From Chitinophagaceae bacterium (GTDB taxonomy: Bacteria; Bacteroidota; Bacteroidia; Chitinophagales; Chitinophagaceae): a stretch of DNA of 48,032 nucleotides. The stretch is taken from NCBI GenBank assembly GCA_025363355.1, contig JANYEB010000220.1, forward strand, positions 1 through 48,032, in the 5' to 3' direction. A program made the position numbers and the translations under genes. Positions 15,454 through 22,314 of this stretch are shown piece after piece. The notes below the pieces were generated by a model. That model worked only from the letters and a program-made list of their open reading frames with translations, ran no database searches and had not been told where the DNA came from. Position 1 is the stretch's first letter; each line of letters begins with the position of its first letter.

Positions 15454-15461
15454 TATATTTG
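15454..15461 (+). promoter_or_regulatory. Putative promoter -7 element of the export operon
   Basis: TATATTTG, matching TAnnTTTG, 19 bases before the ABC gene ATG at 15481. Confidence 0.5.
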
Positions 15462-15480: not shown

Positions 15481-17127
15481 ATGGAACAAAACGCACAAGA
15501 AAGTTTATTTAAATCATTAAGAAGTCTATTTAGAATATTAAAGTTAGATAAAAAAGATATTTCAAGTATTTACTTTTTCGCCATTTTGGGTGGATTAATT
15601 GCTCTAACACTGCCATTAGGAATTCAAACCATTATCAATTTTGTTACAGCAGGTACATTATCAACATCTATAATTGTTCTTATCATTATTGTTGTTATAG
15701 GTGTGTTTATAAATGGATTGGTGCAAGTGCGGCAAATGCAGATTACTGAAAAAGTAAAACAGAAAATATTTACACGTTACTCATTAGAATTTGCCAATAA
15801 ACTTCCACATCTTAATATAGAAAAATTAGATAAATACTATTTACCAGAACTTGTAAATAGATATTTTGATGCTCCTTCATTAACAAAAAGTTTAGAAAAA
15901 ATTTTGCTAGATGTTCCTGCTGCAATTATTCAAATCATTTTTGGTTTAATATTATTATCATTTTATCATCCCATATTTATTGGCTTTGGTTTATTTCTCA
16001 TAATTATTCTTGTTATCATTATTAAATACACATCTCCACAAGGTTTGGCTACAAGTTTAAAAGCTAGTGATTATAAATATGCTATTGCAAGTTGGTTAGA
16101 GGAAATGGCTAGAGTAATTAAATCTTTTAAGTACAGTAAAGACACCAACCTACATTTAAAAAAAGCTGATAAATTAGTAAGTGGATATTTAGATGCAAGA
16201 ACTTCTCATTTTAAAATATTGCTTGCACAATATTGGAGTTTAATCACTTTTAAAATTATTATAACTGCTGCAATGCTTATAGTTGGTAGTTATTTGGTAA
16301 TAGATAATCAAATAAATGTGGGTCAATTTATTGCTGCAGATATTGTAATCATTGCTATTATGAGTAGTGTTGAAAAATTGATTAGCAGCTTAGATAAAGT
16401 ATATGATACACTTACATCTATTCAAAAATTAAGTAAAGTAATTGATAGCGAAATTGAAATATCAGGCACAAGAGAATTACCTGAAATAAATACAGGACTA
16501 GCTATTGAATTTATTGATATAAATTTTGGATACGGAGAAAAAGAAGTGTTAAAAAATCTTTCTTTTAAAATACAACCAGGACAAATGATTTGCTTAAGTG
16601 GAGTTTCTGGTTCTGGAAAATCCTCTGTATTAAGACTATTAACAGGAGCATTTACAAATTTTAGTGGAACCATTTTGTTAGATAATGCACCAATAGGAAA
16701 TTATAGTTTAAAAAGTTTACGCGCTCAAACTGGAATTCTGTTAAGCCAGCAAGATATTTTTAATGGAACATTGCTCGAAAATTTAACAATGGGAAATGCT
16801 GACATTTCTTTAGATGAAGTTAATAAACTAAGTGACAAACTAAATTTAAAAGATTTTATAAAAACCTATAAAGATGGTTATGATGCTATATTAGACACGC
16901 AGGGTAAAAAAATAAATGCCAACATTCGTCAAGAAATATTATTGGTAAGAGCCTTAGTAGGGAAACATAGATTACTGTTATTAGAAAATCCATTTAATAA
17001 TTTAGAACCTAAAGAAGTGGTGGCTTTGATGGATTATTTGCAAAACGACAATACAGCAACAATCATCATTACATCTGATGACAACAATGTGAAAAGTAAG
17101 TGCGATATGATCATTAACCTTAAATAA
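15481..17127 (+). CDS. ABC exporter-type protein with a degenerate nucleotide-binding domain
   Basis: A 548-residue half-transporter, the inner-membrane part of a type I export system. Residues about 25-320 form a type-1 ABC membrane domain with hydrophobic segments near 27-55, 60-85, 150-185 and 255-300. There is no N-terminal C39 peptidase domain. The nucleotide-binding domain (about 330-548) has an intact Walker A, GVSGSGKSS (Lys380), and a Q-loop, LLSQQDIF. The remaining motifs are broken. The LSGGQ signature position reads INANI (478-482). Walker B reads LLLLEN, with Glu502 and Asn503 in place of the Asp and catalytic Glu. The H-loop His is Ser532. Nucleotide binding is likely but normal hydrolysis is doubtful. 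HlyD and TolC genes follow directly, so it still looks like an export operon. No substrate peptide gene is seen. Confidence 0.88.
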   Translation: MEQNAQESLFKSLRSLFRILKLDKKDISSIYFFAILGGLIALTLPLGIQTIINFVTAGTLSTSIIVLIIIVVIGVFINGLVQVRQMQITEKVKQKIFTRYSLEFANKLPHLNIEKLDKYYLPELVNRYFDAPSLTKSLEKILLDVPAAIIQIIFGLILLSFYHPIFIGFGLFLIIILVIIIKYTSPQGLATSLKASDYKYAIASWLEEMARVIKSFKYSKDTNLHLKKADKLVSGYLDARTSHFKILLAQYWSLITFKIIITAAMLIVGSYLVIDNQINVGQFIAADIVIIAIMSSVEKLISSLDKVYDTLTSIQKLSKVIDSEIEISGTRELPEINTGLAIEFIDINFGYGEKEVLKNLSFKIQPGQMICLSGVSGSGKSSVLRLLTGAFTNFSGTILLDNAPIGNYSLKSLRAQTGILLSQQDIFNGTLLENLTMGNADISLDEVNKLSDKLNLKDFIKTYKDGYDAILDTQGKKINANIRQEILLVRALVGKHRLLLLENPFNNLEPKEVVALMDYLQNDNTATIIITSDDNNVKSKCDMIINLK

Positions 17128-19942: not shown

Positions 19943-20488
19943 ATGGAGTTAAAACTAATTATTAATGAGTGTAAACAACAACGCCTAACAGCACAAAAAT
20001 GCTTGTTTGATTTGTTTGCTACACAAATGTTTTTGCTGTGTAAACGATATTTAAAAAATTCTGAAGTTGCTGAAGAAGTGTTAATAAATGGATTTGTGCA
20101 AGTATATAAATCGCTACAAAAATTTAATTATGTTGATGATGCTAGCACAACAAGTTGGATAAAGAAAATAATGGTAAATGAATGTTTACAAGAACTTAGA
20201 AAAAAACAAAGTTTTCTAACAGTAGCAATAGATATAGTAGAGGATAAAACTATTGATAACACTGTATTTGAGAAACTATCACTAGAAGAAATTTATCAAT
20301 TGATAACACAACTTCCAACAGGGTATAGAACAGTTTTTAATTTATTTGAAATAGAAGGTTACTCACACAAAGAAATTGCAAGTAATTTAAAAATTACTGA
20401 AGGCACAAGCAAAAGCCAATTAAGTAGAGCCAAACAAATGTTGCAAGATTTAATCATCAAAAAAAATCAAGTATATGCAACAAAATAA
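19943..20488 (+). CDS. ECF-type RNA polymerase sigma factor
   Basis: A 181-residue sigma-70 family protein with only regions 2 and 4. Region 2 lies near residues 25-90 (CKRYLKNSEVAEEVLINGFVQV, a DAEDVVQDVF-type segment, then TSWIKKIMVNECLQELRK). Region 4 is near 120-172, with LPTGYRTVFNLFEIEGYSHK and the helix-turn-helix EIASNLKITEGTSKSQLSRA. It probably directs transcription of a small cell-envelope regulon. The next gene overlaps by 14 bases and encodes a single-pass membrane protein, the usual place for an anti-sigma factor. The gene begins 63 bases after the TolC gene. Confidence 0.93.
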   Translation: MELKLIINECKQQRLTAQKCLFDLFATQMFLLCKRYLKNSEVAEEVLINGFVQVYKSLQKFNYVDDASTTSWIKKIMVNECLQELRKKQSFLTVAIDIVEDKTIDNTVFEKLSLEEIYQLITQLPTGYRTVFNLFEIEGYSHKEIASNLKITEGTSKSQLSRAKQMLQDLIIKKNQVYATK

Positions 20489-21173
20489 AACTAAAATATT
20501 TACTGATATTGGTGCATTAAACACACTTCAAAATGGAGATGATTTTGATGCTAATAAAGTGTGGAATAAACTAGAACATAAACTCACAAAAAAGAAATCT
20601 AAAAAAATATATTGGATTTGGTTGGCTGCTTCAATGCTAATATTAATAAGCATTCCAGCATTTTTTAAAACAAATACATCGAATAAAAATATAATAGCAA
20701 CAAAGGTTGCTTTACCACAAAAAATAGCAGTTGATAATACAAGTAAACAAATAGTAGTATCTAAAAAAAGTGTAAAAAAAGAGGTTGAAAAACGTATAGA
20801 AAAACAACAGGCTTTAGCACTAGATACATTGCAAAATATTGTAGAAAATATTCAACCAATAGCACTTGATACATCAATTAAAATTTTGAAAGTAGAAAAC
20901 AAAACAGTTGTTACAAGTACTACAATAAAGCCAATAAGAAAGAAACTTAAAGTAGTTTATGCTGGTGATTTATACGAAGAAAATAATCAGCAAACTGCAA
21001 AACAAGAACTAGCAAAAGAACAACCAAGAAAGTCTTTCTTTAAATTATTTGAAAGCCAAAATAAAGAACCAGAAGAAACTACAACAACAGAAAATCAACC
21101 ACAACCCAATAAAACATTTTTAGGTTTTAAAACAAAACCAACTGCCACTATTTCTATCAACGAAAATCAATAA
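20475..21173 (+). CDS. Single-pass membrane protein, candidate anti-sigma factor
   Basis: A 232-residue protein with a short Lys-rich cytosolic N-terminus (about 1-45), one transmembrane helix (about 47-63, WIWLAASMLILISIPAFF) and a long, low-complexity periplasmic region rich in Lys, Glu, Gln and Thr. No zinc-binding anti-sigma motif (HxxxCxxC) is present and I recognise no named family. The call as anti-sigma factor rests on context: the gene overlaps the ECF sigma gene by 14 bases and has the N-in, single-helix layout. The secreted protein gene starts four bases downstream. The membrane topology is clear, the function inferred. Confidence 0.75.
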   Translation: MQQNKTKIFTDIGALNTLQNGDDFDANKVWNKLEHKLTKKKSKKIYWIWLAASMLILISIPAFFKTNTSNKNIIATKVALPQKIAVDNTSKQIVVSKKSVKKEVEKRIEKQQALALDTLQNIVENIQPIALDTSIKILKVENKTVVTSTTIKPIRKKLKVVYAGDLYEENNQQTAKQELAKEQPRKSFFKLFESQNKEPEETTTTENQPQPNKTFLGFKTKPTATISINENQ

Positions 21174-21177
21174 AACA

Positions 21178-22314
21178 ATGAAAAAATTATGTATGTTATT
21201 GTTGCTTGTAATAGCAACACAGCAGCTTATTGCACAAACAACTAGCGAGTGGATATTTGCAGAAGACAATCACAATAAACCAACAGTGGAATTCGAGTAC
21301 AACCCTATTCAAAAAAACATAGGTGTAAACTTTGAATTTTATAGTCTTAAGCAATTAAAATATTTGCCAAATATTGATTCTATTATGGAGCTAGTAAAAA
21401 ATGATTTGCAGTATTTATCAGACTCTTTAAAAGAAGATGCTATAACAAGAAAGTTAGAGTATGCACTTTACAATAAACCCAATAGAATTAGAATTATTAA
21501 TCACACAGAACAACCAACAGCTTATATTGTTCAAAACAAAGAATTAAAACAATTAAAAATTGATGCAGATACTTTAATGATAAAACTATCCGTGTTTAAT
21601 GAAGATAGTATCGGCTTCACAAACTATAACAAAGTGAAAACAAAGATTGCCTATCTAAAACCTGTTTACATTAAATTTTATTTGAGAAATTTAAAAGATA
21701 TCCTTGATTTAAAAAGTGGATTAGTTAGCGTTTGTTTAAATGATATTAAAGCAAAAAATGAAACGATATTGTCAACGAAACGTTCGAAAGATATTAGCTA
21801 TTACGGAAATGATATTTTTAAAAATGAAGCTTTTGAAAAAGATGTATACAGGTCTTGGAGCATTAAAAAGAAGGCATCAAAAGAACTTGTACCCACAATA
21901 GGTTTTGGTATGCAAAATGCAAATGGAGCTTGGCTAGCATCGTTTAATTTTGGAGCAAGATTAACATCAACATCTGAGTATACAGGTACCACTTACTGGA
22001 ATTTAACCTTAGATAATTATTATAATTTTTATACAGATGCCAATAATAATTTTATTAAGGATAGATATAGTTTTATTAATCTTCTGATGTTTCAAAAAGA
22101 GGAAAAACAAGACCAAAAAGGTTTTCAAACACAAGGTAGTTTTGGATTGGGTTATTTAATAAATCGTACAGGTAATTTGTTTGATAAAGGAACATTCAAA
22201 ATGTCGTTCCCCTCTTTAACAAATGGATGGCTATCTATTACTCCAGAAATTTTTTATAGAGATTTTTTCAAAAACACAACGCTTAGTATTAAGTTATCAA
22301 TTAACTATGAGTAA
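21178..22314 (+). CDS. Secreted protein of unknown function
   Basis: A 378-residue protein with a clear signal peptide (MKKLCMLLLLVIATQQLIAQ, cleavage likely before TTSEW). No family is recognised. The middle is polar. From about residue 235 to the C-terminus the sequence alternates hydrophobic and polar residues with many aromatics (GFGMQNANGAWLASFNFG, TYWNLTLDNYYNFY, LSIKLSINYE at the very end), which suggests a small beta-barrel ending in an aromatic residue region. It is the third gene of the sigma-factor operon and could be the envelope component that this system monitors or produces. Confidence 0.75.
   Translation: MKKLCMLLLLVIATQQLIAQTTSEWIFAEDNHNKPTVEFEYNPIQKNIGVNFEFYSLKQLKYLPNIDSIMELVKNDLQYLSDSLKEDAITRKLEYALYNKPNRIRIINHTEQPTAYIVQNKELKQLKIDADTLMIKLSVFNEDSIGFTNYNKVKTKIAYLKPVYIKFYLRNLKDILDLKSGLVSVCLNDIKAKNETILSTKRSKDISYYGNDIFKNEAFEKDVYRSWSIKKKASKELVPTIGFGMQNANGAWLASFNFGARLTSTSEYTGTTYWNLTLDNYYNFYTDANNNFIKDRYSFINLLMFQKEEKQDQKGFQTQGSFGLGYLINRTGNLFDKGTFKMSFPSLTNGWLSITPEIFYRDFFKNTTLSIKLSINYE

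Follow-up and report, generated by a model that had tools for sequence, protein, structure and literature searches.

The window, a 48,032-nucleotide stretch, is contig 188 in the 3.6 Mb draft genome of a Chitinophagaceae bacterium, with Chitinophagaceae as its closest named relatives, and carries an export operon headed by an ABC-exporter-type protein in which the catalytic motifs of the nucleotide-binding domain (NBD) are degenerate. Comparison with relatives across the Bacteroidota suggests, at a probability of about 0.6, that such proteins serve a tripartite HlyD-TolC exporter with an NBD that would bind ATP and not hydrolyse it or, in some members, with no NBD at all. The ORF at 15481-17127 holds ABC_membrane and ABC_tran domains (Pfam; Table 1), its stop codon lies 4 bases from the HlyD start, and TolC begins at the first base past the HlyD stop codon. 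The tight packing with HlyD and TolC and the undamaged frame that had been described in a sequence-only reading of this DNA are borne out by the ORF positions, the Pfam domains, and the intact 548-aa ORF. Amongst the family loci with room to see the neighboring gene, HlyD adjoins the ABC gene in 136 of 144, with a median spacing of 3 bases. Neither the ORF lists nor the neighbor survey revealed a second half-transporter gene as a partner in the operon of the window or of the family loci.

Table 1. Coordinates of the ABC-exporter-type protein, its functional positions, and the two partner genes in the window.
Feature	Position	Strand	Basis or remark
ABC-exporter-type protein, 548 aa, degenerate NBD	15481..17127	+	Intact ORF; PF00664, PF00005; motif loss family-wide
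Membrane domain, residues 12-326	15514..16458	+	Alignments; kept in all relatives including NBD-less
NBD, residues 342-545	16504..17115	+	Pfam match; dN/dS 0.046
Walker A GVSGSGKS, residues 374-381	16600..16623	+	Gly374, Gly379, Lys380 amongst the 2-3% most conserved NBD columns
Degenerate signature INANI, residues 478-482	16912..16926	+	Alignment
Walker B/catalytic positions Glu502-Asn503	16984..16989	+	Alignment
H-loop position Asp533	17077..17079	+	Alignment with canonical relatives
Lys258, predicted TM5	16252..16254	+	Residue counts; helices from structure model
Asp287, predicted TM6	16339..16341	+	Residue counts; helices from structure model
Glu298-Lys299, predicted TM6	16372..16377	+	Near-invariant in full-length, NBD-less, and fusion forms
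HlyD-family adaptor, 454 aa	17132..18496	+	PF13437
TolC-family outer membrane channel, 460 aa	18497..19879	+	PF02321

Five ATPase elements were scored in the NBD: Walker A, a signature glycine, the Walker B Asp, the catalytic Glu, and the His. The sequence-only reading had proposed that Walker A and the Q-loop were retained while the LSGGQ signature, both Walker B acids, and the H-loop His were lost. Walker A, with its Lys380, and the Q-loop (QQ at 423-424) are indeed present, and INANI aligns with LSxGQ. Asn503 replaces the catalytic Glu as described, but the loss of both acids was too strong a statement, as residue 502 is an Asp-to-Glu change; Glu is the majority residue at this position in the degenerate family (118/146), so that the change reads as a substitution common to the family and not as haphazard damage. 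The His is absent too, though its column corresponds to Asp533 and not Ser532 (canonical relatives read I-A/S-H533). Two canonical exporters encoded in the same genome retain all five elements in the same alignment, and the joint loss of the motifs is therefore not an alignment artefact.

Homologues were collected from the organism’s own family (123/296 genomes), from the order, from the class (172/395 genomes), and from the phylum (97/395 at E 1e-90), and named contigs were added. The sequence-only reading had suggested checking whether orthologues share the four changes as a group; they do in the NBD alignment, in which none of 146 family members possesses all five elements; Walker A alone is kept in 72, Walker A and the catalytic Glu in 47, and nothing in eight. 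Canonical motifs were looked for in close relatives, where they would have pointed to recent loss, and were not found. Other classes of the phylum supply a related group of 15, of which 11 keep all five elements. The motif changes are common to a Bacteroidota-wide family, and the degeneration is therefore old and shared. Recent decay was ruled out by the phylum-wide occurrence of the changes and by purifying selection on the frame.

Most members of the related group of 15 have an N-terminal extension of 150-270 aa. An extension of about this length precedes the membrane domain in L183-L185, L187, L189-L191, L194, L195, L197, L198, L208, L209, and L213-L216; no Pfam family covered it in four tested relatives. 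At two loci (L196 and L210) Walker A is destroyed as well, with the ORF and the operon intact, and these may possibly represent a stage between the degenerate and the NBD-less forms.

Column entropy within the degenerate family separates the elements. The two glycines and the lysine of Walker A rank amongst the most conserved 2-3% of NBD columns, whereas the percentile ranks are 93 and 52 for the signature glycines, 40 for the catalytic Glu, and 69 for the His. Compared with the nearest orthologue (94% identity), the membrane domain of the window protein has a dN/dS of 0.009 and the NBD one of 0.046. Across 22 pairs, one of which is formed by the two HlyD fusions (L203 and L204; see below) and has a second value that does not describe an NBD, the medians are 0.027 and 0.075, respectively, with the NBD value higher in 21 of 22. 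These values indicate purifying selection on both domains, stronger on the membrane domain, and, being far below 1, agree with the earlier suggestion that the gene is kept by selection. As Walker A is conserved, the columns required for hydrolysis drift, and both domains are under selection, we infer that the NBD of the window protein may bind ATP without appreciable hydrolysis.

Relatives without an NBD were recovered in the same searches. Seven homologues from the organism’s own family match only residues ~14-326, and more occur in other families of the class. Thirteen of the NBD-less homologues were read over their whole length; they have 330-350 aa and end at the linker between the membrane domain and the NBD, and in 12 of them HlyD and TolC lie directly behind the NBD-less gene in the ORF lists. 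At the remaining locus (L179) TolC is in place and longer overlapping frames mask the first two genes in the ORF list. Three further loci (L218-L220) have the same three-ORF layout by length. Phylogenetically, the 13 NBD-less loci form one clade (SH-aLRT 99%) nested among the degenerate full-length members. Two genomes (G163 and G260) possess both a full-length and an NBD-less operon, and the other NBD-less genomes of the own-family search possess the NBD-less form only. One candidate for an independent loss (L217 in G1075) was rejected as a truncation, the contig ending 77 bases past the match.

A small gene encoding 109-128 aa lies just upstream of many of the NBD-less operons (L077, L078, L080-L083, L181, L182, and L220). 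Its product has a hydrophobic N-terminus, an acidic middle, and a C-terminus that often reads TPPP; three tested examples had no Pfam match, and only very weak matches were found beside three full-length operons.

Two further genomes (G381 and G367) encode the membrane domain and HlyD as one direct fusion, in a single ORF of 774-777 aa (L203 and L204), an arrangement that fits the topology because TM6 is expected to end, and HlyD to begin, in the cytosol. The best tree places the HlyD fusion apart from the NBD-less clade, and the HlyD part of the fusion finds its best match in the HlyD of full-length members. On these two grounds two independent losses of the NBD, one in the clade and one in the fusion, are favored, though the AU test does not reject one common origin (p 0.20).

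A fold search with a structure model of the window protein (Foldseek; mean pLDDT 74.8) returned type IV ABC exporters, including HlyB in complex with HlyD, PCAT1, and TM287/288. The type IV fold and the ABC-HlyD-TolC operon are shared with the type 1 secretion ABC exporters (HlyB, PrtD, and LssB), but the window protein lacks their complete ATP site and falls far under the curated NCBIfam cut-offs for these proteins (best, TIGR01842 for PrtD, 166.8 vs. 510.15 bits). Two other clade proteins and one fusion that were tested likewise fell under the NCBIfam ABC-exporter cut-offs shown. No SbmA_BacA match was reported by Pfam for the window protein, two NBD-less proteins, or one fusion.

Charged residues in the membrane domain are conserved across the full-length and NBD-less forms. 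In TM6, positions 287 and 298 hold Asp or Glu in every one of the 127 full-length and NBD-less sequences counted. In TM5, Lys or Arg occupies position 258 in all NBD-less relatives and in 95% of the full-length ones; at 258 and 287 the two canonical exporters encoded in the same genome carry neutral residues. The charged residues also occur in relatives with complete NBDs and so are neither peculiar to ATPase loss nor proof of coupling. The comparison with the glutamate ladder of SbmA went as far as the presence of conserved acidic residues, at 90, 287, and 298. Further, the motif of the first coupling helix (Glu123, Asn126, and Arg127) is kept in the window protein and the NBD-less clade, and in the HlyD fusion Glu123 and Arg127 are lost. 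Its retention in the NBD-less clade could reflect the docking of a partner there.

The surroundings of the operon differ amongst the family loci. A TetR-family regulator of about 225 aa is encoded directly upstream in 52 of 145 loci (e.g., L093:5753-6424 and L095:5639-6313), which hints at induced efflux of toxic compounds. In the window, nadA takes the place of the TetR gene, an arrangement common only to the closest relative (L027). Directly after tolC, at 19943-22314, lie an ECF sigma factor and two proteins that match no Pfam family and may be an anti-sigma factor and an outer-membrane protein; near the other family loci no such ECF sigma gene turned up. A promoter and terminator scan found sites no commoner than in shuffled sequence. 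The sequence TATATTTG at 15454-15461, 19 bases upstream of the ABC start codon, resembles the Bacteroidota -7 promoter element, TAnnTTTG, and given this likeness the operon may be transcribed from a promoter of its own even though nadA lies 57 bases upstream.

The reading that we prefer is that the window protein would be the inner-membrane subunit of a tripartite HlyD-TolC exporter in which the ABC ATPase has been retired. The NBD would bind ATP and act as a regulatory or stabilizing cap, while the membrane domain, without hydrolysing ATP, would pass substrate from the inner membrane to the conduit formed by HlyD and TolC. As NBD-less operons and HlyD fusions exist, ATP hydrolysis is evidently not needed for the membrane domain to work with HlyD and TolC. 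A proton gradient as the driving force would be a guess by analogy with SbmA and with NBD-truncated MsbA, and Lys258, Asp287, and Glu298-Lys299 would be the first candidate coupling residues. A broader claim, that in the Bacteroidota an ABC-exporter membrane domain was converted into a secondary transporter that powers HlyD-TolC, with surviving intermediates that lead from canonical through non-hydrolysing and NBD-less forms to the HlyD fusion, is tentative and somewhat short of even odds.

Several explanations compete with a retired ATPase. That the gene is decaying and functionless would account for the lost catalytic motifs, but it can be dismissed almost entirely in view of frames that are intact family-wide, an NBD dN/dS of about 0.01-0.14 in all pairs measured, a conserved operon, and the phylum-wide distribution. 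It is improbable that the window protein still hydrolyses ATP at a rearranged site, with Glu502 in place of Asp and other residues in place of Glu and His. The strong conservation of Walker A and the majority status of Glu502 would fit such a site, and the 47 of 146 relatives in which Glu503 persists alongside Walker A favor it and count against the retired ATPase; both signature glycines and the His vary freely, however, and the system is kept in relatives without any NBD. Pairing with a canonical half-transporter, or the borrowing of an NBD, with hydrolysis at a composite site or in trans, appears more improbable still, despite the coupling-helix motif of the NBD-less clade and the canonical exporters encoded in the same genome. 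The operon offers no partner gene, and from ABC architecture neither composite site should be complete, as the Walker B/H side and the signature side are both degenerate. As for an NBD borrowed in trans, the genomes with NBD-less or fused forms contained no family-like NBD elsewhere among the matches listed (search to E 1e-22); the best NBD matches listed there scored about 130-170 bits, nearly all within exporter-length ORFs, compared with 220-367 bits for true family NBDs.

The alternative that carries the most weight, though unlikely, is that the membrane domain no longer pumps and serves HlyD and TolC as a passive anchor, a gate, or an assembly platform, the NBD being an ATP-sensing latch. 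It would explain why HlyD and TolC stay in relatives that have done without the ATPase, or even without the whole NBD. The membrane domain is the most conserved part, including the TM5 and TM6 charges, beyond what an anchor would seem to need, an argument that is not decisive. Of the three mechanisms offered by the sequence-only reading, namely a nucleotide-gated channel, pairing with another half-transporter, and an unusual mechanism, the relatives without an NBD strengthen the last, and pairing is the least likely.

Known systems share parts of the retired-ATPase exporter proposed here. In the heterodimers TM287/288, TmrAB, and TAP, NBD motifs are likewise degenerate and the fold matches, but these keep one consensus site with a partner chain and the window operon has no partner gene; a heterodimer with one degenerate site fits poorly, since here a single chain is degenerate on both sides of the ATP site. 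The HlyD-type adaptor and TolC of EmrAB-TolC are served by a proton-driven inner-membrane transporter. EmrAB-TolC would thus be an analogue in how it works, though the fold of EmrB is MFS and not that of an ABC exporter. SbmA imports peptides on the proton gradient, and a proposed origin for it is the membrane domain of an ABC exporter after loss of the NBD (PMC13316013). The NBD-less clade would be a parallel case to SLiPT (SbmA/BacA) of an exporter membrane domain without an NBD. SLiPT transporters have no NBD, which is also true of the NBD-less clade and of the HlyD fusion and not of the window protein, which retains its NBD, and the membrane domain here, unlike that of SLiPT, stays with HlyD and TolC. 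Additionally, SbmA is described as being without coupling helices (PMC13316013), whereas the coupling-helix motif is kept in the window protein and the NBD-less clade. MsbA lacking its NBD uses a pH gradient to export ethidium (PMC4979069) and is likewise an exporter membrane domain alone, but it is an engineered truncation rather than a natural family and has neither HlyD nor TolC. No description of the exporter family studied here was found in the open-access literature searched.

ABC exporters are defined by ATP hydrolysis, and a large family under selection that loses its ATPase stepwise, with the membrane domain and its HlyD-TolC partners retained, is a natural experiment on the role of the NBD. 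The family bears on how a primary pump can become a secondary one and, as the intermediates survive, the question is directly testable by comparison; a conversion of this kind has been described for SbmA, but SbmA imports and has no HlyD-TolC partners. As a caution, genes of the degenerate family should not be annotated as ATP-driven. If the proposed reading is true, the family would represent a further way to power a HlyD-TolC exporter, besides ABC ATPases, MFS, and RND pumps.
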